The position numbers and the translations under genes are program-made. A DNA stretch of 37,750 nucleotides from a virus, in the IMG/VR virus record IMGVR_UViG_3300009495_001941, positions 1 to 37,750 of that record; one strand, written 5' to 3'. The notes beneath the pieces were generated by a model, which had not been told where the DNA came from, did not search any database, and saw nothing but the letters and a program-made list of their open reading frames with translations. Below, in pieces: positions 5,410-37,127 of this stretch. Every line of letters starts with the position of its first letter. Within the stretch, counting starts at the first letter, position 1.

Positions 5410-8400
5410 ATGGCTGAATTTAAAATAAGTAGACTACGTTTTTCCTGGGTAGGAGAATGGGTAGATCAAAAAGCATTTAATAAAGACGAAATAGTACAAT
5501 ATGAGGGTAAAGCATATGTATGCTTAGTACCGCATACGTCTAATGGATTTTATCCTGATCTAAACAACATTGAACCTAAATGGGAACTAATGATGACTGG
5601 ACAAACATGGAAAGGTCCATGGCAACAGTTTGCAACATATAGTTTAGATAACATTGTAATTTTTGGTGGTATTGTTTATAAATGTAACACAGCACATCTA
5701 GCAGGAGCGGTTCTTGATACAGATATTGAAAAGTGGGACGTTTATGCAGAGTCAAAAACTTGGCAAAGTGAATGGACATCAGAAACTTCATATGGTGTAG
5801 GTGATATTGTTCAGTACGGTGGTTCAACTTATGAATGTATTATTTCACATATATCTGCAGAAACAGACTTAGAAGGTCTAGAAGCAGATTATGTTGGTTT
5901 AGATAGTACTCTAGTTAAATGGAAATTACTTAAAGAAGGCGTACAATGGAGAAGCGAATACGATGTATCTTCAGAAGATAGTACACAAGTTAGATATAAA
6001 CTAGGAGATCTTGTTAAGTACGGGCCGAGTGTATATAAATGTATTGAAGGACATGCACCAGAAAAAAGTGAAGCAACTAATTACGGAGTATACACTAGTA
6101 CAGCAATAACAAATCTTACTGGTAACGGGAGTAACTTTTTTAAGAGAGAATTAACAGCATATGGAGTTAGACTTGTAGTAGCAGGCGATGTCGGCGGCCA
6201 AGCAGCAGTTCCAGATGCATTTACTGAAAAAGTAGCTCAAACATTTAAACTACTTTTAAATAAAGATGGTGCTAATATTAATAGTGCAGCGCAAATACAA
6301 GCAATTAATACACTTGGCGGAGCAGTTGGCACATATCACGCAGGCTTCCCAACACTACAAAGAGTAGCAAGAGGCGCAGGATCAGATTACTCAACAAATT
6401 TCTTAGACGACGACGGTATTACATTCTGGGGCTTACAAGATCTTTTTGATACAACTGTTCAAAATGATATGGTTTGGTATTTAAACTCAACTGGAGAAGC
6501 ATTAGGAACCGGCGACACTGATGCTCAAGAAGTATTAGAACACGTAATGCATACATTGCATATGCACGGTCTTGATGCAAGAGGGTTAAAATTATATCCA
6601 CAGCTAGACGCAGACTGGGCAACTGGTGATTTATACAACGCAATGGTAGAAGCATATGACGGCGGATTTTGGGACAGTTCAGGCTACGGTGGCGATACTT
6701 GGAAGACAGACGGCGATGCATTTGAAGTAGCAGCAAAAGAATACTTGTACTTACTAAACTTCTGTATGTTCGATTATTCATCGTTATGGACCGGCGGAAG
6801 TCTTGCTCCTGAATGGGCAGACAGTGTCAACACATCAGCAGGCATTACATTAAATCTTCCATTAGGACTTGCATTATATAATACATATATTGCACCAGTT
6901 ATTAGTAAACCATCACTTGCTACTATCAGAAGCATTTATCAAGATGGTGACATTGGTGATCCTACAATAGCAGGAACATCAGGATATGCTGTTGAAACAA
7001 ATGCATCAGAAGGTACAATACAAGATACGTTTAATTCTTCATACTGGAGTTTATGGGTACCAGGTTTAGATTTTGATGGAGTATATAGTGCTAACTCAAT
7101 TTATCAACCAGGCGATATTGTACTGTATGGTGGTTACTTGTACCAAAGTTTAGTCATTAATAATATTAATAATACACCATCATTTAACTCTGGCGATTCA
7201 ACAGAACAATGGGAATTAGTAAGTCAAGCATGGGACGTTACTGGAGATTGGTCCAGTGCTACTCCTTATAAAGTTGGTAACGTTGTAACATATGGCGGCG
7301 ACCTTTATGTTGCTGTTACTGACAGTAGTAACAAAGTACCAGGTAATTTTGAAATTGATGCACCGTATCAAACTGAAGGATCTACTGGAACTACTATTAA
7401 ATTACAAACACAAGATTCTGCAAATCCATTAGCTATTACAGTAGGCATGTCTGTTATTGGAGAAGGATTTGCACAAGGTCAAACAGTACAAACAGTCGTT
7501 ACTGATGGTGATATAACTACAGTAACATTAAGTGCAGAACCAGATGGAACCATTACAGATAATGCTATACTGACCTTTGTTGGTACTAACTATGTTTATT
7601 GGGAACTAATGATCCCAGGCTTCCAGTGGGAAGGCAAATGGGCTATTGAAAGATTATATAATCAAGACGACATTGCATATTATGGTAATGCAACATACCA
7701 GTGTACTAGAGAACATACATCAGCATTAGTTAATAGACCAGACTATGATTTACAAAATAGCTATTGGACACTATACTTACAACACGATAAAACTAACTCA
7801 CTTACACAAAAAGGTGAAATAATTATTCAATCAGGTGGTGATAAAACCGCCCTAACAATTGGTGAACAAGCAAACGTATTAAAAGTTGTTTCTGATTTGC
7901 CAACCTGGACAGAAACTGACTTTACTCCAAATGTGTATTATGTTGCTACTAATGGTATTGATGCAACTGGAAGAGGAACAACAGCAGATACAGCCTGGAA
8001 GACAGTTAAGTATGCATGTGAAGTTGTAGCAAGAGGAACACGCAAAGCAAACGAAAGAGAGTTGCTTTTACAAAATAAACAATGGGTAATTGACGAAACA
8101 TACTACTGGTTCTTGTATCAACAAAATGCAGGTATAGAGCCTTTCGGAGCGTCAGTAAACTTTAGCGAATATTCAACAAGACGAGATTTAGAATATATAT
8201 TTGATGGAATAGTTACTGATTTATCAAGAGGCCAAAATGCAAGTACTGTTCAAAATGCTCTGTCATATTTTGATTTAGAAAGCACTAACCAATTTGCAAA
8301 TATAACCGTTGCTACTCAAGCTGAATATTACTCAGTAACAATAGCACAACTATTTAATAATATTGAATTTGCACTAACTAATGTTGCTCCAAGTACAAAC

Positions 8401-11400
8401 TATCAGCAATTAGAAACAGATAGACTAGGATATCCTTTACCATATGGCATATCGACTCAGTATTTCAATAGTGGTTTAACTATTGAAGCTGATACTATTA
8501 CAACACTAGGCGGCCTAGAAAAAATTATTAGAGAACCTCTTGAAGCAGAATCACCTGATTCAATACCTCCAGCTAATCAAGGTGCGTACACTACTATTAA
8601 TCTTAAATCTGGTACATATGAAGAGATACTTCCAATCGTACTTCCAGCAAAATGTGCGTTAAATGGAGACGAATTGCGTGGCGCACAGATTAAACCAGCA
8701 AATCCAATTAATACACTTTGTACAAGGACATTTGGTTTTATTAATCAATTTGTTGTAGGTACAACACGTAATATGGAAAATAATACTAAAGTACAATTTG
8801 TATCATTAAATCCAGTAGATGAAATTAGTACAATTATTGGTGACGTAGAGCAAGGAACAACTTATTATGTTATTGGAAGTAGTATTACTGATACAACATT
8901 TAGTGTTTCAGCAACTCCAGATGGTGAACCAGTAGAACTAACAACTAATATTGGTTACATGTATGTATACGGCGGAAATTCGTTAAATGATATGATTTAC
9001 GTACAAAACGCAACAGGTGTTCGTAATATGACATTAACTGGATTATTAGGAACATTAACTCCTCAAAATGAATATGAAACAAGACGCCCAACCGGCGGAG
9101 CATATGTAAGTCTTGATCCTGGTACAGGAGTAGACGATACTACAGCTTGGATTCAATATAAATCACCTTATATTCAAAACGTAACTAACTTTGGTAAAGG
9201 ATGTACAGGACTTAAAATTGATAGTACGTTACATAACGGAGGTAACCACTCGATTGTTTGTAACGACTTTACGCAAATTATATCAGATGGTATTGGCGTT
9301 TGGTGTACAGGCGGAGATGCATTAGTTGAATGTGTTTCTGTGTTCTCTTACTATAACTATGCCGGATACTTTGCAGAGGATGGCGGACGCATACGTGCTA
9401 CAAATGGTAACAGTTCATACGGTCAATATGGTTGTATTGCAGAAGGATTTGATGAAGCAGAGATTCCAGCTACAGGTATTGTAAACAACAGAGACAATCA
9501 AGCATTTGGTGAAGTAGGTCCTGTGGGTCCAAATGCAGAAATACTAAAATTAGAATTAGGTCATGCTGGCGAAGAATACTTTACAAAAACAACAAACTTA
9601 GTACGTCAAAGTAATAATCTAGTAGATACAACTTATTGGAGTACAGACGGCAATCTTAATATTACTAGAGCAAATACTACACCTTTTGAAAATGAAGTTG
9701 CTTGGAGAGTTGAAGGAATTACTAGTTTATCAGATTCTAGTTATTTTTGGCAAGATGTTCCAGTATCGCCGCAAGGTAAAACATATACAAATGTACCAGG
9801 CGAAAACGTTGACGGTTCAGGTATTGATGCAACATTTGATGTAACAGTGTTTAGTGATAGATATGTTGTTGCTGTTAATAATGGCGGTAGTGGTTATGTT
9901 GTTGGAAACGAAATTACTATTCCAGGATCTAACTTTGGTGCTCAACCAGGTGCAAATGATATTACAATAACAGTTACTGGACTTTCTATTACAGCAATTT
10001 TAACAATATCACATATAGGAACTGTTCCTGTAGGAAGTGCATTAGAATATACAGCAAGTATATATGCTAAGAAGCAAGATGCACCATATTTTGATTTTCA
10101 TGCAGTATTTTCAGGATATGAACAAAGAACTTCAATAATGAGATATAATTTTGATACAGATTTAATTACTCCCATAGAAGATGAAGATACAGGCATTCAA
10201 TCAACAGTCTTTAAAGCACAATTTGTGTCAGATGGTTGGTATAGAATATCATATACATTCTGGGACGAAACAGCACAAAACACATCTCTAAGATTTAAAA
10301 TATATCCTAGAGGCATTGACGGTATTGCTGGTACTACAAACTTTTACGGAGCACAGTTACAGCAAGGTGATCTTACATTCTTTATGGAATCAGTAGGTGA
10401 TAGACCATCAGGCTATGCTAACGTACACATTGACGGATCAGGAAATTCTGCACAGATTGTTGCAGACGAACAACGAAGTGGATCAATATTCCAGACACGC
10501 ATACTCGAAAGTAGAGCATTTACACAAGGTGGATTAGGATACAAGTTCCAATCAAATAACGCACAATCAGGCGATGATGAGTTGATAACACTTGCAGGAT
10601 CTGAAGTTGCTACATCAGCACAATATGAAAATATGCGTGTATTTGTTAACAGTGGTCTAGGAGCAGGTCAATATGGTGTTATATCAAGATATGATGATAC
10701 TCTTAAAAGAGCTTATGTATTAAAAGAATCCTTTAATAGTCTAGAAATAACTGAAACTAATAATGTTACTAACAGATTTAAATTAAATCCGGATGCCGAC
10801 TTTCATACTGTTTATACTGGACAGCGTATTAGATTTACACCAACGTATTTTAATATCCAAGTTGACTCAACAGCACAGGATGACATACAAGTACTTGGAA
10901 CACTAGGTGACTTGAATAACTATATGTATGTTTCTAGTACAGCAAAATTAAGAGTTAATCAAAAAATTAACTTTACTGGAACAACATTTGGCGGAGTTGT
11001 TACAAACTTTGATTACTATATCATAACCATTGTTGATGAAACTACTATACAAATTTCTACAACACAAGGCGGCGGAGTATGGCCGTTGTCAAATATTAAC
11101 ATTGAAGATCCGCAAGGAGCTCCAATCGTGTTAACAACAGAAGTAGATCCGTTTACATTAAACTTTCCATCAAATACTAGTTACTTAAAAGGTACTAGTA
11201 CAGAAGATATGGAAATAGCATATCCAATACAGTTTACTGGAACTAGCTTAGGTGATATTACATTAGGTCAAGTATATTACATACATGACATTTATAATGG
11301 CACACAGTTTTCAATATCAGCAAATAAAAACGAATTTGATGCAACAGATACTACTACTGGCACAAATGCAATTACAATAGCTGATACTTCAACACTTGTT

Positions 11401-14400
11401 CCGCTAAACCCTGTATTATTTAAATCAGGTGTAATGGGTGGTCTAATAGAGAAAAAACAATACTGGATTAATAGTATAATTGACGGGACTAACTTTACTA
11501 TATCTGATACAATAGCTACAACAAATGCAACAGCAACGGAAGCAATATCAAATCTTATTACAGTAACAAGTACATCAGGGTTTGTTGCAGGATCTCCTAT
11601 AATATTATCAGGAACTACATTTGGTGGAGTTGTTAATGACAAAGTTTATTATATTCAGGTTGTAAACAATGCAACATCATTTACTATTAGTGAAAGCCCA
11701 TCTGGTGCAGCTGTTCCGTTATTAACAGCAACAGGAGATGTTATTGTTAGAACACTTACTAATACAGTTGCATTATCAACAGCAACTGGTACAATGAGTA
11801 GTGTGTCTCCTGGAGTAAAAGAAACTGTTACATCAGGCGGCGGTGCAACAATGGAAACACAATTCTATACAGAAACATATGGCGGCGTTACTAATAATTC
11901 TTATTATGTACTTGAAAAGTTTGAAACAACACCAACAGTAAGTTATAATAGAGGAACTAATTGGTTGCAAGCTACTACAAATTGGAATAACGAAACATTA
12001 ACTATTGAAACCGGAGCAAGTGATACTCCTTTCCTACAGCGTTTGCAAGACGTTGGATCTGGAACTGTACTTACTATTACTGATGCTACACTAGGAGTTG
12101 TTACTGTAACGCTCGCTAGCGACTGGGATATTATTCCTGGTGTTAGTACTAGTGTGTCAGCAACAACAGTTGAAACAGCTCCAGGATTAGGAGCACAAGA
12201 TATTACAGGTATAACTGTAAATGTAGATGACTCAACAATAGTTAAAGAGTTTACAGTTGAAGCTGTAAAAGACAGCGGTACTCCATATAGTATTAGTTCA
12301 GATACAGGATCAATGCAAATTGGTTCAGTTGGTTGGGATCATGTAAACCCTGGAACACCTACAGCAGCTGGGTTTGATTCTACATCAATATACAACATTG
12401 AACCAAGAATGCTATACTCTGAACCAGTGTTCAGTCAAACAGATTGGGAAGGCGGTATTGGAGCAGGGTATTCAATAATTGTATCAAGTGATGCTAAAAC
12501 AATAGCGTTTCCGTCCTCAGGGGCAGCGGCTGTAAGTTCAACAGACTTTAATAGCTGGGATGTTAGTATTACACTTCCTGTAACAGTAGATGATGATCCG
12601 AACACAGTTATATGGGCAGATGCAGCATACGGAAATAATACTTGGATATTAGTATCAACTTCAGGCAGAGTTTTATACTCAGTAACTGAAGGAGCAACTT
12701 GGTTAACATCTAACTTGCCTGCACTAGGAGCAGGTGAAGAATGGTCATCAATTGCATACGGCGACGGTGCATTTACAGTAGTAGCAAGAGGAAGTAGTAT
12801 TTCTGCATACACAACAAATGGTGGATCTACTTGGACATCAGTTAATACAAGCATTGGCGACAACGATTGGGTTGATGTTGCATACGGAGATCATACATAT
12901 GTTGCAATATCAGGTTCAAGTGATACAGTAAAATATAGTACTGATTCAGGAGCAACATGGTCAGAATCAACAGTTGACACTTCAGTAGATTCTACTGTTA
13001 ACAACTGGTCTAAATTAACATACGGTAATGGTAGATTTGTTGCTATATCTTCTGAAGAATCATACTCAGTATATAGTTTTGATGGAATAACATGGTACCA
13101 ATCAAATCTTCAAGTTTCAGGAGGATACCTACAATATGGCAACGGATTATTTGTAGTAGTAAATACTGAAGACGGAGTTTGTTGTCAAAGTGAAGATGGG
13201 TTTAATTGGAAAAGATTAAATGCAGCTGTTGCAAGTTATATGGGATTAGGATATGGAGTAAATCCAGCTAACAAGATTGGTTACTTTATAACTGTTGATG
13301 ACTCTTCTAATACAACTAGCATATCAACTGGGTCAAGAGCATTTGCAAGAGCTACAATAGAAAATACTGTAATGACAGGAATATCAATGGTTAATCCAGG
13401 GTCAGGTTACACAGGTACACCAACTCTTGAAATTATTGATCCAAATAATTCACAAGATGCACTTACACAAGTACGTATTGGTAACGGAGTATTAGGTCCA
13501 CCGAGTATATTAAATCAAGGTACTGGATATAATGCTACTTCTACAACAATTACAATTAATGGTAGCGGATTTTCAGATGCATTCCAAACTGGACTAGTAA
13601 TTATTCTTAAGGATTTAACAAGACTACCACAACCAGGTGATAATATTGAATTTGCAGGCGATTCTACAATATACAGAGTTGCTAAAGCAACGATTTTACG
13701 AGGAACTAAAGTTCCAAACTTAGAAGCCGAAGTTCAAATTTCGCCAGGAATGAGTCAAGAATTATCGCCGGTACACGAAGCAGCGTTTACAATGCGTAGT
13801 AGATTTAGTCAGGTACGTTTAACAAACCATGACTTCCTAAATATTGGTTATGGTAACCAGATACAGTCTAACTATCCGTTCTTACCAGAGAACACAAACT
13901 TAGAACCACAAAACGAAGTACAAGAAACAAATAACGGGCGTGTGTTTTATAGTTCGACAGACCAAGACGGTAACTTTAGAGTTGGTGACTTGTTTGCTGT
14001 TGAACAGGCAACAGGTATTGTTACACTAAGTGCTGATGAGTTTGGATTAGATGGATTGAGCGAATTGAGTATTGGTGGTGTTGCACTTGGTGGATCACCA
14101 GTTGTTGTTACAGCGTTCTCAACAGATGGTACATTTGTTGCTAACTCGAATAACTTAGTACCTACACAAAAAGCAATTAGAACATACTTGACAAGTAGGT
14201 TAAGTCAAGGTGGTTCAGATACATTTACAGGCTTGTTACAAGCTGGTACTGTAAAAGTAGGTGGACCAGATATAATTACTTCTTCAGTTGAAGAAGGCCA
14301 AGAGGGTTGGCAAATTAAAATTGGAACAAAAATGAACCAGAGTGGGGCATTTGGTAACAGTGGTTGGGCAGGAGATGGAGTAGCAATGTCATATTTCTTT

Positions 14401-14439
14401 AAGACGTTATTCGATCCAACACGCTCAGGACAGCAATAA
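5410..14439 (+). CDS. Giant modular virion protein / adhesin, paralogue A (3009 aa)
   Basis: Predicted giant tail-associated adhesin. Approximate residue order: (11-790) seven CBM5/12-like repeats with pattern W-x-x-x-W...Y-x-x-G-D-(I/V)-V...Y-G-G-x-x-Y; (220-540) a His-rich domain inserted in repeat 4; (655-728) a beta insert in repeat 6; (797-835) a 'GExxxxxxGDxTAL' linker; (841-1370) a pectate-lyase-like beta-helix with one helical module around 875-1055; (1397-1670) a jelly-roll-like carbohydrate-binding region; (1824-2117) four small beta modules; (2341-2640) a BNR/Ycf48-like propeller; (2658-2717) GSGYT motifs; (2718-3009) a C-terminal block with 'STDQDGNFRVGDLF' and 'VPTQKAIRTYL'. It shares this plan with the 4008-aa neighbour. 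No signal peptide or membrane segment is seen. Virion location is strongly suggested by family and context; ligand specificity is unknown. Confidence 0.93.
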   Translation: MAEFKISRLRFSWVGEWVDQKAFNKDEIVQYEGKAYVCLVPHTSNGFYPDLNNIEPKWELMMTGQTWKGPWQQFATYSLDNIVIFGGIVYKCNTAHLAGAVLDTDIEKWDVYAESKTWQSEWTSETSYGVGDIVQYGGSTYECIISHISAETDLEGLEADYVGLDSTLVKWKLLKEGVQWRSEYDVSSEDSTQVRYKLGDLVKYGPSVYKCIEGHAPEKSEATNYGVYTSTAITNLTGNGSNFFKRELTAYGVRLVVAGDVGGQAAVPDAFTEKVAQTFKLLLNKDGANINSAAQIQAINTLGGAVGTYHAGFPTLQRVARGAGSDYSTNFLDDDGITFWGLQDLFDTTVQNDMVWYLNSTGEALGTGDTDAQEVLEHVMHTLHMHGLDARGLKLYPQLDADWATGDLYNAMVEAYDGGFWDSSGYGGDTWKTDGDAFEVAAKEYLYLLNFCMFDYSSLWTGGSLAPEWADSVNTSAGITLNLPLGLALYNTYIAPVISKPSLATIRSIYQDGDIGDPTIAGTSGYAVETNASEGTIQDTFNSSYWSLWVPGLDFDGVYSANSIYQPGDIVLYGGYLYQSLVINNINNTPSFNSGDSTEQWELVSQAWDVTGDWSSATPYKVGNVVTYGGDLYVAVTDSSNKVPGNFEIDAPYQTEGSTGTTIKLQTQDSANPLAITVGMSVIGEGFAQGQTVQTVVTDGDITTVTLSAEPDGTITDNAILTFVGTNYVYWELMIPGFQWEGKWAIERLYNQDDIAYYGNATYQCTREHTSALVNRPDYDLQNSYWTLYLQHDKTNSLTQKGEIIIQSGGDKTALTIGEQANVLKVVSDLPTWTETDFTPNVYYVATNGIDATGRGTTADTAWKTVKYACEVVARGTRKANERELLLQNKQWVIDETYYWFLYQQNAGIEPFGASVNFSEYSTRRDLEYIFDGIVTDLSRGQNASTVQNALSYFDLESTNQFANITVATQAEYYSVTIAQLFNNIEFALTNVAPSTNYQQLETDRLGYPLPYGISTQYFNSGLTIEADTITTLGGLEKIIREPLEAESPDSIPPANQGAYTTINLKSGTYEEILPIVLPAKCALNGDELRGAQIKPANPINTLCTRTFGFINQFVVGTTRNMENNTKVQFVSLNPVDEISTIIGDVEQGTTYYVIGSSITDTTFSVSATPDGEPVELTTNIGYMYVYGGNSLNDMIYVQNATGVRNMTLTGLLGTLTPQNEYETRRPTGGAYVSLDPGTGVDDTTAWIQYKSPYIQNVTNFGKGCTGLKIDSTLHNGGNHSIVCNDFTQIISDGIGVWCTGGDALVECVSVFSYYNYAGYFAEDGGRIRATNGNSSYGQYGCIAEGFDEAEIPATGIVNNRDNQAFGEVGPVGPNAEILKLELGHAGEEYFTKTTNLVRQSNNLVDTTYWSTDGNLNITRANTTPFENEVAWRVEGITSLSDSSYFWQDVPVSPQGKTYTNVPGENVDGSGIDATFDVTVFSDRYVVAVNNGGSGYVVGNEITIPGSNFGAQPGANDITITVTGLSITAILTISHIGTVPVGSALEYTASIYAKKQDAPYFDFHAVFSGYEQRTSIMRYNFDTDLITPIEDEDTGIQSTVFKAQFVSDGWYRISYTFWDETAQNTSLRFKIYPRGIDGIAGTTNFYGAQLQQGDLTFFMESVGDRPSGYANVHIDGSGNSAQIVADEQRSGSIFQTRILESRAFTQGGLGYKFQSNNAQSGDDELITLAGSEVATSAQYENMRVFVNSGLGAGQYGVISRYDDTLKRAYVLKESFNSLEITETNNVTNRFKLNPDADFHTVYTGQRIRFTPTYFNIQVDSTAQDDIQVLGTLGDLNNYMYVSSTAKLRVNQKINFTGTTFGGVVTNFDYYIITIVDETTIQISTTQGGGVWPLSNINIEDPQGAPIVLTTEVDPFTLNFPSNTSYLKGTSTEDMEIAYPIQFTGTSLGDITLGQVYYIHDIYNGTQFSISANKNEFDATDTTTGTNAITIADTSTLVPLNPVLFKSGVMGGLIEKKQYWINSIIDGTNFTISDTIATTNATATEAISNLITVTSTSGFVAGSPIILSGTTFGGVVNDKVYYIQVVNNATSFTISESPSGAAVPLLTATGDVIVRTLTNTVALSTATGTMSSVSPGVKETVTSGGGATMETQFYTETYGGVTNNSYYVLEKFETTPTVSYNRGTNWLQATTNWNNETLTIETGASDTPFLQRLQDVGSGTVLTITDATLGVVTVTLASDWDIIPGVSTSVSATTVETAPGLGAQDITGITVNVDDSTIVKEFTVEAVKDSGTPYSISSDTGSMQIGSVGWDHVNPGTPTAAGFDSTSIYNIEPRMLYSEPVFSQTDWEGGIGAGYSIIVSSDAKTIAFPSSGAAAVSSTDFNSWDVSITLPVTVDDDPNTVIWADAAYGNNTWILVSTSGRVLYSVTEGATWLTSNLPALGAGEEWSSIAYGDGAFTVVARGSSISAYTTNGGSTWTSVNTSIGDNDWVDVAYGDHTYVAISGSSDTVKYSTDSGATWSESTVDTSVDSTVNNWSKLTYGNGRFVAISSEESYSVYSFDGITWYQSNLQVSGGYLQYGNGLFVVVNTEDGVCCQSEDGFNWKRLNAAVASYMGLGYGVNPANKIGYFITVDDSSNTTSISTGSRAFARATIENTVMTGISMVNPGSGYTGTPTLEIIDPNNSQDALTQVRIGNGVLGPPSILNQGTGYNATSTTITINGSGFSDAFQTGLVIILKDLTRLPQPGDNIEFAGDSTIYRVAKATILRGTKVPNLEAEVQISPGMSQELSPVHEAAFTMRSRFSQVRLTNHDFLNIGYGNQIQSNYPFLPENTNLEPQNEVQETNNGRVFYSSTDQDGNFRVGDLFAVEQATGIVTLSADEFGLDGLSELSIGGVALGGSPVVVTAFSTDGTFVANSNNLVPTQKAIRTYLTSRLSQGGSDTFTGLLQAGTVKVGGPDIITSSVEEGQEGWQIKIGTKMNQSGAFGNSGWAGDGVAMSYFFKTLFDPTRSGQQ
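5440..7790 (+). repeat. Seven CBM5/12-like coding repeats, two interrupted
   Basis: Units begin near 5440, 5600, 5758, 5941, 7066, 7228 and 7621. Each encodes an aromatic strand, 'Y..GDIV.YGG..Y.C', an H-(T/S) turn and a closing W. Unit 4 is split by about 960 bp and unit 6 by about 220 bp of foreign domain sequence. The chitin-binding-like fold is assigned from the motif only. Confidence 0.75.
6060..7030 (+). other. Inserted His-rich domain, possibly zincin-like (about residues 220-540)
   Basis: This domain lies between the 'CIEGH' and 'YWSLW' halves of repeat 4. It has an alpha-helical look unlike its beta-rich surroundings. Residues 374-387 read EVLEHVMHTLHMHG, with histidines at 378, 381, 384 and 386. 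A second helix, FEVAAKEYLYLL, starts at 438 with glutamates at 439 and 444. Two helices of this kind resemble a zincin core, but canonical HExxH is absent (EHxxH instead). I recall similar sequences in secreted bacterial proteins but can give no family name. Activity is unproven. Confidence 0.5.
12430..13330 (+). other. BNR/Ycf48-like beta-propeller region of paralogue A
   Basis: Roughly six repeats encode 'W..(I/V)AYG(D/N)G.(F/Y).......YS.(D/N)G..TW', for example 'WSSIAYGDGAFTVV', 'WVDVAYGDHTYVAI' and 'WSKLTYGNGRFVAI'. The pattern matches Asp-box or Ycf48-like propeller blades. It corresponds to 23830-25230 in the second giant gene. Such propellers often bind glycans or proteins. No sialidase catalytic residues can be assigned by eye. 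Confidence 0.6.
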
Positions 14440-29065: not shown

Positions 29066-29896
29066 ATGGCAACCGAAATTAATAACTCAGGAGTCAAATT
29101 TCCGAACAACACAACAGCGGAAACACTTCAACAGTATAACGAGATTTGGGTATACAGCGGTAGTCACTGGAGTGTAACAAACGGCGGACGTTGTTGCTAC
29201 TGGACTATCCCAACTTATACTACTTCTGTTAAATTTGAAATAGTATCCGGGGGAGGACCAGGCGGTGCTTCAGGCGGAGACTACGATGTTGGTGTAGGCG
29301 GCTCAGGCGGAAACTATACATCAAAAGTAATGAGAAAATCAGCAGGTTGTTTTAACAACGGATGCGGATATAGAATGTGTGCAGCTGGTACATCAAGTTG
29401 TAGTTGTTGTTGCAGATGCGGAGTTAACTGTAGACATGGATGTAAATCATATGTCCAAGGACGAGGATTAAGCAACTTCTGTGCGCAAGGCGGCATGGGC
29501 GGATCAACACCATATGATGTTATGAGTGGTTGTTATAACTGTTTTATCGGTAATACACAATGTAACAAAGGTCAATACAACGCAGGTTGGATGAACTGTT
29601 ATTGTAACTCAGCTACATTCGGCGGAGATGTTGAATTTAGAGGCACGTCAGGATCAATGAAGAAAAGTGTTAGCTGTTGTCAACATACATACACTACTCC
29701 GGGTGTTCCTACAGGCCCACTTGGCGGCGGCCATTATGGCTCAAGTGGTAAAGATCCGTGCGTAGGTAACATGGCATGTTGTAATACACATTCAAATTGG
29801 CCAGGCGGCGGCGGACAAGGCCACGTAACAGCATCACGTAATGCTTGTTGGGGAAGCTGGGGCGCAGGCGGATTAGTTAAGTTAACATACACCTAA
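29066..29896 (+). CDS. Cysteine- and glycine-rich virion-associated protein (276 aa, 24 Cys)
   Basis: Function is unknown. The protein opens with a fibre-like 'INNSGVKFPNNTTAETL', then a 'GGRCCYWTIPTYTTSVKFE' strand and a glycine-rich core. Twenty-four cysteines occur between residues 43 and 270, often paired or clustered ('CSCCCRC', 'CYNC', 'CYC', 'SCC', 'ACC'). The end, 'WGAGGLVKLTYT', resembles glycine-rich phage fibre-tip proteins. It starts 2 nt after the S74 fibre stop, so it is almost certainly expressed with it. Disulfide cross-linking or metal binding are both possible. I recall comparable Cys-rich proteins in marine T4-like phages but no assigned role. There is no signal peptide, so any disulfides would form after lysis or by assisted oxidation. 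Confidence 0.9.
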   Translation: MATEINNSGVKFPNNTTAETLQQYNEIWVYSGSHWSVTNGGRCCYWTIPTYTTSVKFEIVSGGGPGGASGGDYDVGVGGSGGNYTSKVMRKSAGCFNNGCGYRMCAAGTSSCSCCCRCGVNCRHGCKSYVQGRGLSNFCAQGGMGGSTPYDVMSGCYNCFIGNTQCNKGQYNAGWMNCYCNSATFGGDVEFRGTSGSMKKSVSCCQHTYTTPGVPTGPLGGGHYGSSGKDPCVGNMACCNTHSNWPGGGGQGHVTASRNACWGSWGAGGLVKLTYT

Positions 29897-30765: not shown

Positions 30766-31686
30766 ATGAAAAAAGCATTTTATATTAATGGCGGCGCCGG
30801 CAGGGTATTATGTGCTATCCCTGCATTAGAACATCATATTAAACATATCGATCCAACTGTAATAATTATTGTAGAAGGTTGGCTAGAAATATGTTTATTA
30901 AACAAAGCAATAATGCATAATGTATATCCACATGATCATCCAGATTTAATAGAAAAATTAAGAGATAGAGAAGTTATTAGCCCTGAACCTTATAGACTAA
31001 ATGCATACTTTAATCAAAAATGTAACCTTGTTCAAGCATTTGATATGTTGATTAATTATGATGTTCCACCAACAGATATTCCAGAAGTTAAAGAATATAA
31101 TATGTTTATTAGTAAGGCTGATGCAATAGTAGCACAAAATTTAATTAGTGAAGTAAAAGCACATACAAAGAAAGAAAAATTTGTAGTATTCCAACCTTTC
31201 GGCTCAACAGCAAAGGCAGAAGGTCAATATATAATAGATGAAAGTGGAAGATCATTTGAAACTGAAGATATTTTTCAAATAGTTGAAGAACTAAACAAAG
31301 ACTATGGTGTTATTATTATGGGAGAAATTAAAATTCCTAATTTGCCAAAAGGAGTTATTGTTCCAGAAGAAATATCATTATTACAGTGGACAGCAATTAT
31401 ACATGCATCAGATTATTTTATAGGTTGTGATAGTGTAGGTCAACATATTGCACACGCACTTGAAAAGCCCGGCACTGTTGTAATTGGTAGCACCTATCCA
31501 GAAAATACATCTTACACTAGCAATTCTACAATAGAAATTATCGATAATGGCAAAGATAGGAAAATGTATTCTCCGATTCGAATGACATACGATATTAGAA
31601 TTGAAAAAAATAACGAGTACCTAATGAAACTTGATGAAAATACCATTAAAGGTATTGTAAAAACTGTTAAGAAAAAATTATCTTAA
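30766..31686 (+). CDS. GT9-like glycosyltransferase (heptosyltransferase-like), 306 aa
   Basis: Predicted to transfer a sugar, possibly heptose from ADP-heptose. The N-terminus 'GGAGRVLCAIPALEHH' (Gly 9, 10, 12) follows the GT9 pattern GGxGDxLxxxPAL. The C-terminal half has 'KFVVFQPFGS' and 'YFIGCDSVGQHIAHALEKPG' (Cys 221, Asp 222, Ser 223), corresponding to the nucleotide-sugar binding region of the heptosyltransferase GT-B fold. The usual basic residues around the donor phosphate are hard to place, and the N-terminal domain is short. It opens a separate transcription unit behind a late promoter, and ends 9 nt before the carbamoyltransferase. ADP-heptose enzymes lie on the opposite strand nearby, making an ADP-heptose donor plausible. 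A different NDP-sugar cannot be excluded. Confidence 0.78.
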   Translation: MKKAFYINGGAGRVLCAIPALEHHIKHIDPTVIIIVEGWLEICLLNKAIMHNVYPHDHPDLIEKLRDREVISPEPYRLNAYFNQKCNLVQAFDMLINYDVPPTDIPEVKEYNMFISKADAIVAQNLISEVKAHTKKEKFVVFQPFGSTAKAEGQYIIDESGRSFETEDIFQIVEELNKDYGVIIMGEIKIPNLPKGVIVPEEISLLQWTAIIHASDYFIGCDSVGQHIAHALEKPGTVVIGSTYPENTSYTSNSTIEIIDNGKDRKMYSPIRMTYDIRIEKNNEYLMKLDENTIKGIVKTVKKKLS

Positions 31687-33516: not shown

Positions 33517-34135
33517 ATTAGAAGGGCAAATATTACCTTTATTTGCTACACCTTTATACACACATAAACTAGAACACACCGAATTAGAACATGCACAATA
33601 CGATGTTCGAACTGTGGTTAAAAAATTATATGACGAAGATAGATGGGGACAGAATCAACGATGGAGTTCAGGAACACATCAATTATCTAATAAAGGAAAT
33701 TTTGAAGATTGCATAATAACTTCAGAAAAAATGTCAAACATCAAACGTTCTATTATGCACCATGCTGGTAATTATATGTCACATATGAATGTTAGACCTG
33801 ATTATAAAAGTGCAATTTCGTCGTCTTGGTTAACATTAACTAATACCGGTCTACATGCACACATACACGATCACGGAACTTCTCATATTAGTGGAGTATA
33901 TTGGTATAAAACAAACGGAAATGACGGCAATATAGTTTTTCGAAATGCGTTAAAAGCATTAAAATGTAATCCAATTGGAGCATCATTTGCACATGAAAAT
34001 GAATTTGTTCCTGAAGAAGGAAGAATAGTTATGTGGCCTAGTTTCTTAGATCATTCTGTTAATGAAAACAAAACTGATAATGACCGTATTAGTTTATCGT
34101 TTAATATAATATTAGAAACAGGTATTACTACTTAG
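33503..34135 (+). CDS. 2OG-Fe(II) oxygenase, TIGR02466-like (210 aa)
   Basis: Predicted 2-oxoglutarate and Fe(II)-dependent dioxygenase of the group common in marine myophages. 'LHAHIHDHG' at 117-125 contains candidate metal ligands His 120, His 122 and Asp 123 or His 124. 'SGVYWYKTN' follows, as in the family pattern. 'GRIVMWPSFLDHSVNEN' supplies the distal His 184. 'DRISLSFNI' supplies Arg 195, a likely 2-oxoglutarate carboxylate ligand. The start overlaps the carbamoyltransferase by 14 nt, implying coupling. The stop overlaps that of the convergent phosphatase gene by 8 nt. Substrate is unknown. With a glycosyltransferase and carbamoyltransferase upstream, a surface-modification substrate is possible, but family members in phages have no single known target. 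Confidence 0.88.
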   Translation: MLEPKLEGQILPLFATPLYTHKLEHTELEHAQYDVRTVVKKLYDEDRWGQNQRWSSGTHQLSNKGNFEDCIITSEKMSNIKRSIMHHAGNYMSHMNVRPDYKSAISSSWLTLTNTGLHAHIHDHGTSHISGVYWYKTNGNDGNIVFRNALKALKCNPIGASFAHENEFVPEEGRIVMWPSFLDHSVNENKTDNDRISLSFNIILETGITT

Positions 34136-34778
34136 ATTCGATCCAATTAGCAAAAGATAAAAGATCATCAAATATAATAGTCTTTTTCTTTATCTTTTGA
34201 TTAGTAAATTTATTAAGTTCTTTAATAGTTTGTTCGCCGTAACCTGTGCGCACTAGTACAGGTCTTGCACCCATTTTAAATGCTGCTTTAAGATCAGATA
34301 TTTTATCACCAACATAATATCCTTGTTTAAATTTAATATGCTTAACTTCGTTCTCACATCTTTTAAACATACCAGTATTGGGCTTTGCATACATGTCGCT
34401 ACGCATACTACTTTCACTATAAAATAATGCATCAATACTAGGACATCCTGATTGAGCTAACAAATCAAACATATGGTTGTGTACAGCTTCGACATCTTGT
34501 GAAGTATATAAACCTTTTGAAATACCACCTTGATTTGTAATTATAACAATCTTATGTCCTAAATAACGGAGTTTTGTAATAGCATGTAGACTACCTTCAA
34601 TAGGTTCAAAGTCTTGTGGACGGTATGTATAAGTTCCGCGATCTACATTTATTACTCCGTCCCGATCTAAACCAATAACACATTTTGGTGCAATGTTAAC
34701 ATTGTCATACAACGGAACTGTTTTTGTTTCTTCTACAGGCTCGTGGCTATCAGTCCATTTAATTTTATAATCACTCAT
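34128..34778 (-). CDS. gmhB: D,D-heptose 1,7-bisphosphate phosphatase-like HAD protein (GmhB-like), 216 aa
   Basis: Predicted to remove the C7 phosphate of heptose 1,7-bisphosphate in ADP-heptose synthesis. HAD motifs, numbered from the ATG at 34778: 'GLDRDGVINVD' with Asp 38 and Asp 40; 'IITNQGGISKG' at 79-89; 'KPNTGMF' with Lys 132; 'VGDKISDLKAA' with Asp 158 and Asp 162. The Cys/His zinc loop of E. coli GmhB is replaced by a stretch without Cys or His ('SESSMRSDMY'). Extra N-terminal residues 1-32 have no clear role. An in-frame GTG at 34829 would add 17 residues but lies deeper in the cupin gene. The ATG overlaps the cupin stop by only 8 nt, so I prefer it. A related histidinol-phosphate phosphatase is possible, but the neighbours favour GmhB. 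Confidence 0.85.
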   Translation of the reverse strand: MSDYKIKWTDSHEPVEETKTVPLYDNVNIAPKCVIGLDRDGVINVDRGTYTYRPQDFEPIEGSLHAITKLRYLGHKIVIITNQGGISKGLYTSQDVEAVHNHMFDLLAQSGCPSIDALFYSESSMRSDMYAKPNTGMFKRCENEVKHIKFKQGYYVGDKISDLKAAFKMGARPVLVRTGYGEQTIKELNKFTNQKIKKKTIIFDDLLSFANWIESK

Positions 34779-35166
34779 TGGACGGTACTTGACTATCTCC
34801 AGGACCAATTCGATAATTGTCTTCAACACTATCTGGAGTACTTACTTCAGTAATACTAGATTCATCAGTAGTAGCTACTAATTGATGTGGCATTAATGGA
34901 GGGTTGTGCCATACATCGCCTTCTTTAAGTTCTTTTTCATATAACATTGAGTCCTTAGTATCAATGTATCGAACTTTAAAGGTGCCACTATTGACAAACC
35001 ATGTTTCGTCTTTTTCTTTGTGGAAGTGCATACTTGTTTTATTTCCGGCTTTATTAAAAAACATAATTTTACCACAATAGTCATCTGTTGTGGCCCAAAT
35101 GAGTTCGTATCCCCATCCTTTTTGTACCGCTCCACTTAGTCGAGTAGGTGTAGTTTTATCTTCCAT
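34771..35166 (-). CDS. Cupin-fold protein, sugar-isomerase-like (131 aa)
   Basis: A single cupin-2 domain. Motif 1, 'SMHFHKEKDETWFVNSG', supplies candidate metal ligands His 47, His 49 and Glu 54. Motif 2, 'EGDVWHNPPLMPHQL', supplies His 94. The opening 'KGWGYELIWATTDDYCGKIM' resembles the C-terminal cupin of type II mannose-6-phosphate isomerases. The C-terminal 25 residues are polar and acidic. The start has the best Shine-Dalgarno of the minus-strand cluster. It overlaps the HldD-like gene upstream by 11 nt and the phosphatase gene downstream by 8 nt, so it belongs to the heptose operon. It may be a sugar isomerase or epimerase acting on the same sugar, or a sensor. The substrate cannot be read from sequence. 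Confidence 0.85.
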   Translation of the reverse strand: MEDKTTPTRLSGAVQKGWGYELIWATTDDYCGKIMFFNKAGNKTSMHFHKEKDETWFVNSGTFKVRYIDTKDSMLYEKELKEGDVWHNPPLMPHQLVATTDESSITEVSTPDSVEDNYRIGPGDSQVPSNE

Positions 35167-35962
35167 TTATAAATTCCTCCGGGGTTGTAAAGTTAATGTT
35201 TAGTACACTACTTAATTTTTTTATGTCTGCACAAGTGTATTCTTGATATTGATCTTTAAGTTCTTTAGGCATAGGTATATATTCAATTTTAGCTTTAAAT
35301 CTTTTAGCTACTAGATCTGCAATAGTTTGAAAACTAGTAGCAACACCTGTACCAATGTTAAATATTCCAGACTCTTTTGATGTTAGCATGTACCGATGTA
35401 TATTACAACAGTCACCTACATATATAAAATCTCGTTTGTATAGTTCACTATTTTCAAATAACTTAATTGTACCAGACTTTGCTTGCTTAAAAAACTTAGT
35501 TATAGGACTTGCTTGGTCACCTTTATGATCTTCCATAGCGCCATAAACATTAAAGTATCTAAATCCTTGAACAATAATATTTTGTTTTTGTTGCATTACC
35601 CAACGATCAAATAAGTACTTACTTGTTGCATAATAACTTTGCGGTTGTTTAGGTGCATCTTCATTAAAATCTAAATTGCAACCATACACACTAGCACTAC
35701 TAGCATACTGTAAATTTACACCATTAGTATTACATTGATTAAATAACCATTTTGAAAATTCATAATTTTGTAACATTACTTTATCTACATCACGTTCAGT
35801 AGTTGAACTAATTGCACCAAGATGTATTACCCAGTCGTATCCAGAAACATCTGGTAATGAATTAGGGTTCCATTCGTAACCAAATAACTCGTTGTCTTTG
35901 TCAAGAAACGGAGCTAAATTTTTACCAACAAATCCTTCATGTCCTGTTATTAATATTTTCAT
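35156..35962 (-). CDS. hldD: ADP-heptose 6-epimerase-like SDR protein (HldD-like), 268 aa
   Basis: Extended short-chain dehydrogenase/reductase predicted to invert C6 of ADP-D-glycero-heptose. The Rossmann motif 'GHEGFVG' is at 7-13. 'YASSASVYG' supplies the active-site Ser region at 86-94. Catalytic 'YATSK' has Tyr 111 and Lys 115. 'GFRYFNVYG' at 133-141, 'HKGDQASPI' and 'FENSELYKRDFIYVGD' match the substrate domain of HldD/RfaD rather than generic NDP-sugar epimerases. At 268 aa it is shorter than the bacterial enzyme (about 310 aa), missing part of the C-terminal substrate domain. It overlaps the kinase/adenylyltransferase gene by 26 nt and the cupin gene by 11 nt. A neighbouring HldE-type gene makes the assignment more secure. 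Confidence 0.88.
   Translation of the reverse strand: MKILITGHEGFVGKNLAPFLDKDNELFGYEWNPNSLPDVSGYDWVIHLGAISSTTERDVDKVMLQNYEFSKWLFNQCNTNGVNLQYASSASVYGCNLDFNEDAPKQPQSYYATSKYLFDRWVMQQKQNIIVQGFRYFNVYGAMEDHKGDQASPITKFFKQAKSGTIKLFENSELYKRDFIYVGDCCNIHRYMLTSKESGIFNIGTGVATSFQTIADLVAKRFKAKIEYIPMPKELKDQYQEYTCADIKKLSSVLNINFTTPEEFINGR
35174..35180 (-). promoter_or_regulatory. Strong ribosome binding site for the cupin gene (GGAGGAA)
   Basis: On the minus strand GGAGGAA lies 7 nt before the cupin ATG (35166), inside the end of the HldD-like gene. It fixes the cupin start and suggests strong translation. Confidence 0.7.
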
Positions 35963-37100
35963 TATTCGCTTCTATAATATCAGTTGTGCTATGACCTTCA
36001 ACTGTAGGTATAATATGTACTGGTGCTAAGTCGTGTCCTACAATTTCAGGTACAGTATAATCGCCACCTTTAACAATAAGATCAGGTTTTAATGACTGTA
36101 TCAATTCATATGGAGTGTCTTCTTCAAAAATAATAACTTCGTCAACATATGGTATAAGTTCTAATTGCTCTTGACGCACATTAACATCGTTAATGGGTCT
36201 AGTTTTACCTTTTAAGCGTGACACGCTGGCATCGCTGTTAAGCCCTACAATAAGTCTATCACCTAGTGTACGGGCTTCTTTAAGCAACGTAAGGTGTCCT
36301 TTATGTAGTATATCAAAACATCCGTTAGTAAAGATTATTTTCTTATTTAGATCTCTTTCTGTAAGTAAGTACGTACCTGAATGCTTAACAGATTCAGTTG
36401 ATCCTCTAACAGCAATTTCTAGACAACGCTGATAATCATATCCTTTAGTAAGTGCATATACAAATCCTGCTATGAAACAATCACCTGCTCCTGTAACATC
36501 TGATACTTCTACAGTATCTACAGGAATATTAAATTTTTGATTATCTATTACAGCAACTACATCATTGCCAGCATTAGTTGTAATAATATTACCAAGCCAT
36601 CTATTAAAATTAAATTGACCAAACTCACTATTATTAGGTTTTACTAACCACGCACCTTTAAAGTCGTCGGCTTGTCGTTTTGGATCTACTATAATCTTAC
36701 ATTTGGATGTATTGTTAATGTGATCAATTATTTGATTTGCTACATTCATCATACCTTTATTATAATCACTTAGTATAGCATAATCATACTGAGTGAAGTC
36801 GGTATCTTTTATTAAGCCAATTATGTCTTCGCCTTCTATAAACTTATCATCGTCAACTCTTGTAACATAATGACCGTCACACATAATACGAGTTTTTATA
36901 CTTTTAGCATGAGGATATTCGAGTAGATCTACTTTAACATTTAAATTAGCAAGGTTATTATAAACTAGTCCTGCGCCACCATATGTTTCTACAACGCTTT
37001 CTTGATTAACTACAGGCACTGGTGCTTCAGGACTTAGTCGAGTTGAAGTCCCATATATGTATTTGTCAATTATTATGTCGCCTATAACTATAATTTTCAT
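35937..37100 (-). CDS. hldE: Bifunctional heptose kinase/adenylyltransferase (HldE-like), 387 aa
   Basis: Predicted to phosphorylate heptose 7-phosphate at C1 and later adenylylate heptose 1-phosphate. The N-terminal PfkB/ribokinase domain (1 to about 250) has 'GDIIIDKYIYG', 'RLSPEAPVPVV', 'GGAG' at 41-44 and the catalytic 'DVTGAGDCFIAG' (Asp 207). The C-terminal cytidylyltransferase-fold domain (about 253-387) has 'FTNGCFDILHKGH' (His 266, His 269), 'LNSDASVSRLKG', 'RPIND', 'LIVKGGDY' and 'HSTTDII'. E. coli HldE has about 477 residues; the shortfall lies in the kinase half, where loops after the GGAG motif and after 'KPNNSEF' are trimmed. Both active-site signatures survive. The ATG at 37100 is preferred over a GTG at 37115. 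No clear Shine-Dalgarno is seen. It ends 26 nt inside the HldD-like gene. Confidence 0.92.
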   Translation of the reverse strand: MKIIVIGDIIIDKYIYGTSTRLSPEAPVPVVNQESVVETYGGAGLVYNNLANLNVKVDLLEYPHAKSIKTRIMCDGHYVTRVDDDKFIEGEDIIGLIKDTDFTQYDYAILSDYNKGMMNVANQIIDHINNTSKCKIIVDPKRQADDFKGAWLVKPNNSEFGQFNFNRWLGNIITTNAGNDVVAVIDNQKFNIPVDTVEVSDVTGAGDCFIAGFVYALTKGYDYQRCLEIAVRGSTESVKHSGTYLLTERDLNKKIIFTNGCFDILHKGHLTLLKEARTLGDRLIVGLNSDASVSRLKGKTRPINDVNVRQEQLELIPYVDEVIIFEEDTPYELIQSLKPDLIVKGGDYTVPEIVGHDLAPVHIIPTVEGHSTTDIIEANNENINNRT

Positions 37101-37127
37101 ATTACTATTATACACTAAAACTCTATA

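Follow-up and report, generated by a model that had tools for sequence, protein, structure and literature searches.

A mobile cyanophage virion domain with a predicted zincin-like fold and an E-H-x-x-H motif, found inserted in a tail fibre repeat

The Pro-Pro endopeptidases PPEP-1, PPEP-2 and PPEP-3 are secreted enzymes of the zincin fold that have cell-surface proteins as their substrates. In PPEP-3 the N-domain is alpha/beta and has an edge strand; the HEXXH helix comes next, and then a helical C-domain that carries Glu197 and the catalytic Tyr190 (PMC12828418). HExxH is also the defining motif of the gluzincins (collagenase, M1, M30 and thermolysin-like enzymes). The window analysed here, a stretch of 37,750 nucleotides covering positions 1 to 37,750 of the IMG/VR virus record IMGVR_UViG_3300009495_001941, encodes a tail fibre protein with an inserted domain that is predicted to resemble these enzymes in architecture and that carries a different motif.

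The tail fibre gene (P0001; positions 5410..14439, on the + strand as are all features of this gene given below) is a single open frame for 3009 aa with N-terminal CBM5/12-like repeats, and its product matches phrog_9851 tail fiber protein in PHROGs (E 8e-136). Pfam recognises CBM_5_12 repeats in seven stretches over the whole protein (E 1.3e-35), and within residues 1-597 they flank the insert on both sides above the gathering score (E 5.9e-33, five stretches), with no Pfam match within the insert. Residues 178-215 (5941..6054), the opening part of CBM-like repeat 4, run to KCIEGH, after which the repeat is broken by about 320 residues (overall insert bounds approximately 225-530, inserted domain core 228-530 at 6091..6999); the C flank resumes at W546-SLWVPGLDFDGVY... 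with the end of repeat 4 and the start of repeat 5 (7045..7100; 58-75% identical in relatives from W546). In nine empty-site homologues (L098 and others; N side 73-87% identical) repeat 4 is unbroken and about 33 residues stand where the window has about 340, and P0001 has therefore received a true insertion, which upholds the split of repeat 4 described in the first-pass annotation of this DNA. Four further homologues have a filled site, with inserts just 41-66% identical to that of the window between flanks that are 60-83% identical. The homologous tail fibre is encoded as two adjacent ORFs in L002 (2951-4981 and 4992-10925) and L003 (2960-4996 and 5007-10949), of which the first ends with Ig-like repeats that follow CBM repeats and a cupredoxin-like stretch, and the zincin-like domain opens the second; assembly of both chains may be required there.

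The window virus is related to T4-like Synechococcus phages. The N-terminal repeats of the fibre protein match those of S-SSM7 and other tail fibres at about 30%, and the carbamoyltransferase of the virus matches its S-SSM7 counterpart at 55%. Elsewhere in the window, a PfkB and cytidylyltransferase fusion (35937-37115, - strand), an NAD-dependent epimerase (35156-35962, -), a HAD phosphatase (34128-34829, -) and a family 9 (heptosyltransferase) glycosyltransferase (30766-31686, +), surrounded by cupin, NUDIX, carbamoyltransferase and 2OG-Fe(II) oxygenase genes, look like a phage-borne ADP-heptose-type sugar pathway. Between tail genes lies a very Cys/Gly-rich protein of 276 aa (29066-29896, +; runs such as CSCCCRCG) with no Pfam match.

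A scan of IMG/VR with the window domain as query returned 134 related stretches, and scans with two divergent alleles returned 50 and 189, the sets overlapping. The loci analysed contain 123 distinct viral copies that are nearly complete; grouping these by flank similarity gives about 28 host-protein contexts, a rough number obtained by single-linkage clustering; the domain tree calls for at least 45 context changes, with at least three at the window's own site on well-supported (starred) branches. The domain, which the first-pass annotation had described in one tail adhesin, is no oddity of that adhesin but a mobile family, present in GenBank only as unnamed portions of cyanophage proteins. 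Subtilases, themselves hydrolases, are its frequent partner: three subtilase clusters, whose tested members match Peptidase_S8, account for 60 of the 123 copies. Among these marine viral subtilases (phrog_9158, phrog_3677) the domain interrupts the S8 catalytic domain of L010:4521-7010 and L004:951-3917 at a point between its Asp and His regions, lies further along the catalytic domain in L033:3171-6506, and comes behind S8 in L005:2370-6707 and L016:3393-5912. Non-subtilase carriers include tail fibre and baseplate wedge proteins. All 85 GenBank phage records with the domain are Synechococcus phages or cyanophages with one place each, and all 12 viral genomes or contigs checked (up to 300 kb) have a single copy. 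Jumbo-sized viral contigs of 270-300 kb (L164, L167, L181) also contain it, and in a related cluster (L162 and others) it stands between long Thr/Pro-rich (TPTPSIT) linkers.

An insertion of this domain, at 63-66% identity, is also present in the baseplate wedge protein T4-GC 1018 (Prochlorococcus phage Syn33, S-RIM2/S-RIM12; GenBank), a carrier that differs from that of the window and lacks its CBM repeats; the protein is annotated only as a baseplate wedge subunit or as hypothetical, with the domain unnamed. Within the species Brizovirus syn33 the insert is found in T4-GC 1018 of Syn33 (1721 aa) and of its close relative S-RIM12 W1_08_0910 (1723 aa) and is missing from that of S-RIM12 RW_28_1109 (1404 aa), with 148/150 residues identical on each side. 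The RW_28_1109 genome has no copy of the domain elsewhere, and growth in culture therefore does not require it. No target-site duplication is seen at the junction in T4-GC 1018. Classification as an intein or homing element was rejected, the borders varying between contexts, with no conserved splice residues and no nuclease match in Pfam.

Conservation was counted over the 123 viral and 18 bacterial copies (141). None of H310, E377, H378, H381, H384 and E444 varies among the viral copies (123/123 each), which is beyond what chance would give; E377, H381 and E444 are also kept in all 18 bacterial ones, and selection on the domain is purifying (dN/dS 0.09-0.24). His310 (6337..6339, in GTYHAG) is retained in 16/18 bacterial copies. 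An edge-strand-like strand (residues 350-357, the QNDMVWY region; 6457..6480; E126-133 by DSSP on the model), in which D353 and M354 are present in 123/123 viral copies, directly precedes the active-site-like helix (residues 368-386; 6511..6567; DSSP H144-162) that contains EVLEHVMHTLHMH. This helix bears the motif E377-H378-x-x-H381 in an HExxH-like position (6538..6552; E377 and H381 in 141/141 copies, H378 in 140/141) and His384 (6559..6561; 14/18 bacterial copies), and helix geometry would place E377, H381 and H384 on one face and H386 on the opposite one. In the second conserved helix (residues 435-453; 6712..6768; DSSP H211-229), Glu444 (6739-6741) lies mid-helix in the model and is a candidate third ligand, kept in 141/141 copies and invariant in the remote set. 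The histidines at 378, 381, 384 and 386 sit where the first-pass annotation put them. Of the residues that it singled out, which include the glutamates at 439 and 444, all are fixed in the viral copies except H386 (81/123, elsewhere F, Y or M) and E439 (89/123), which were dropped as functional residues because they are poorly kept. Tyr426 (6685..6687) is kept across the superfamily (140/140; invariant column Y202, with Y215 at least 90% in the remote set) and is a candidate for the catalytic tyrosine role. Just four positions stay fixed throughout the widest remote set (n=12), namely E377, H381, E444 and a Pro. The lack of HExxH, already remarked on for the window copy, extends to every member found, the most remote included: viral copies have E-H-x-x-H, which is spaced like HExxH but has His and Glu swapped at positions 1 and 2, and the relatives have E-[E/H]-x-x-H.

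The AF2 model of the window domain, from 43 aligned sequences, is confident (pLDDT 90.9, pTM 0.90), as is that of the L108 allele (about 41% identical, different alignment; pLDDT 92.3, pTM 0.91). Both are alpha/beta, with a strand hairpin, two helices, a strand, a second strand, the motif helix and a helical C-part containing the second conserved helix; the helices proposed for the insert are therefore there, but it is not purely helical. Foldseek searches of PDB and BFVD gave no significant match, and the program's own ranking for the L108 model placed unrelated proteins at the top. When the weak Foldseek candidates were realigned with VIA-align, PPEPs were the best structural match of both models: the best Z was 6.8 for the window model (9g5j_D, rmsd 4.6, 176 aligned), with zincins in 46 of the 50 best rows listed and the best unrelated row at Z 3.4, and 7.0 for the L108 model (6fpc_D, rmsd 4.3, 150 aligned), with zincins in all of the 50 best rows listed out of 998 chains aligned, values of Z below 8 which may reflect a mere common arrangement and are not proof. 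The best rows span several unrelated zincin families (PPEP, collagenases, M1, M30 and thermolysin-like), and identity to the matched chains is only 4-13%. In these models the E/H helix and the E444 helix appear to occupy the places of HExxH and of the third glutamate ligand in zincins. Rather than an unrelated confident fold with the histidines scattered over the surface, the outcome that the first-pass annotation had named as speaking against its zincin-like core, the prediction and structural search yielded confident models for which zincins rank first by VIA; with Foldseek insignificant, Z below 8 and a motif of the form E-[H/E]-x-x-H, a zincin fold is predicted and not established, and because such Z values are no proof we keep 'zincin-like' as a label.

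Sequence profiles, which had likewise been suggested as a check, assign the domain to no family. Searches of Pfam, PHROGs, NCBIfam and PDB sequences with the domain and its remote relatives returned no covering family. For a PPEP/lethal-factor-like affiliation (Pfam ATLF), no Pfam family reached E <=1 for the domain and the family profile had no match among PDB sequences; hhalign of Peptidase_Mx1 (PF15890) against three members gave chance segments only. Remote homologues (hhalign E 4e-5) were found among secreted proteins of Flavobacteriaceae and Opitutales, with E-E-x-x-H or E-H-x-x-H, and a profile without viral members recovers the viral-type bacterial members at 2.7e-12 and 1.7e-8. The EExxH proteins (L129-L138 and the N-terminal half of L092) share the invariant E, H and E and differ from the phage domain in being stand-alone, with lipoprotein-like N-termini, and in having Glu as the second motif residue; they belong to no family in Pfam or NCBIfam. 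In one Flavobacteriaceae genome, adjacent genes (L130:1-1161 and L130:1222-2160) encode paralogous secreted proteins, one EExxH and one EHxxH, without a Pfam family. No member with canonical HExxH, which would have proved the register and linked the family to known zincins, turned up in about 1,080 genomes in the neighbourhood of the bacterial relatives, and the viral contigs, phages and plasmids searched contained no relatives of the L092 EExxH domain.

We propose that the insert folds autonomously and belongs to an undescribed zincin-like superfamily, and that cyanophages shift it among virion proteins by in-frame insertion in surface loops or by fusion at chain ends. In the window, its position in a loop of CBM-like repeat 4 would display it on the tail, and the adjoining repeats would keep it near the host surface. 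The putative pocket would be formed by E377-H378-x-x-H381 from one helix together with E444 from another, Y426, H310 and H384 being conserved as well. It would correspond in position to the gluzincin HExxH + Glu site and would most probably bind a metal. We favour an extracellular, particle-borne activity whose target would be a conserved constituent of the Synechococcus envelope, as this fits the purifying selection, the invariant pocket, the single copy, the apparent indifference to the carrier, the secretion of the bacterial relatives and the frequent fusion to subtilases. The receptor-binding parts of fibres usually diversify, and for this reason hydrolysis appears slightly likelier than binding alone. 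We give about an even chance to this reading as a whole, that of a mobile virion-displayed domain with a probably metal-binding functional site that acts on the envelope. The data show the boundaries, the mobility, the single copy, the purifying selection and the invariant residues; the fold is a prediction, and the register with HExxH, the metal, catalysis and the target are inferred. Speaking against the reading are the insignificant Foldseek searches, Z below 8, the absence of HExxH and of any linking canonical member, the chance-level comparison with Peptidase_Mx1 and the viability of phages that lack the domain.

A serious rival, which we consider a real but minority possibility, is that the fold has been retained and catalysis lost, leaving a pseudo-enzyme adhesin that would bind a conserved host or virion ligand and might or might not hold a structural metal. 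HExxH is missing throughout, position 2, where HExxH has its catalytic Glu, is His in all viral copies, and its carriers include tail fibres and baseplate proteins in which CBM-like and Ig-like repeats adjoin it, all of which suits such a module. However, a dead pocket would be expected to drift, whereas no pocket residue varies among the 123 viral copies, spread over some 28 contexts; the EExxH relatives keep Glu at position 2; and the domain is under purifying selection, whereas receptor-binding parts usually diversify. It is improbable, in our judgement, that the zincin resemblance is one of shared arrangement only, in a novel alpha/beta fold with other chemistry (for instance a non-peptidase metal or glycan site): the insignificant Foldseek searches, Z of at most 7 and low identity would agree with this, but the best rows of two models all belong to one structural class drawn from several unrelated families, and the conserved E/H and Glu helices are in the expected places. 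A passive spacer or selfish, intein-like or homing-like insertion, tolerated in loops and without a function of its own, would account for the many contexts and for presence and absence within one species between near-identical flanks, but is made very unlikely by the purifying selection, the unvarying pocket and the single copy in each genome, by bacterial relatives that are secreted as stand-alone proteins with lipoprotein-like signals, and by borders without conserved splice residues, a junction without target-site duplication and the lack of a nuclease match in Pfam.

Returning to the proposed particle-borne activity, a more specific form of it can be put forward tentatively, at clearly less than even confidence: the family may constitute an undescribed class of hydrolases, dependent on a metal and with a site of the form E-[H/E]-x-x-H + E on a zincin fold, a carboxylate replacing the first His ligand, which would serve Synechococcus phages as an interchangeable virion plug-in, one per genome, that acts on the host envelope during adsorption. 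To our knowledge, few phage tail enzymes are known besides polysaccharide depolymerases, and how marine Synechococcus phages pass through the cell surface is, as far as we know, largely open. That one domain is swapped among fibres, baseplate proteins and subtilases while remaining single-copy points to an activity worth displaying whatever the carrier. Its effect is directly testable, as cultured phages of the same species with the domain (Syn33, S-RIM12 W1_08_0910) and without it (S-RIM12 RW_28_1109) exist. If the domain is catalytic, the zincin fold gains a non-HExxH active site.

Compared with PPEP-3, the modelled phage domain has its parts in matching order, and both would work outside the cell, PPEP as a secreted enzyme and the phage domain, as proposed, displayed on the particle. 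They differ in the motif, E-H-x-x-H instead of HExxH, and in the distance from the last motif His to the third-ligand Glu, which is 63 residues in the phage domain and 40 in PPEP-3 (His157-Glu197, PMC12828418); there is no detectable sequence similarity between them, and the phage domain is inserted in virion proteins. The gluzincins share the predicted core topology and the positions of the conserved helices, but their defining HExxH is absent from all members of the phage-domain family, at 4-13% identity. We found no paper in the open literature on the domain in cyanophages. As far as that literature goes, its motif and its mobility are undescribed, while its predicted fold and proposed display on the tail are of known kinds.
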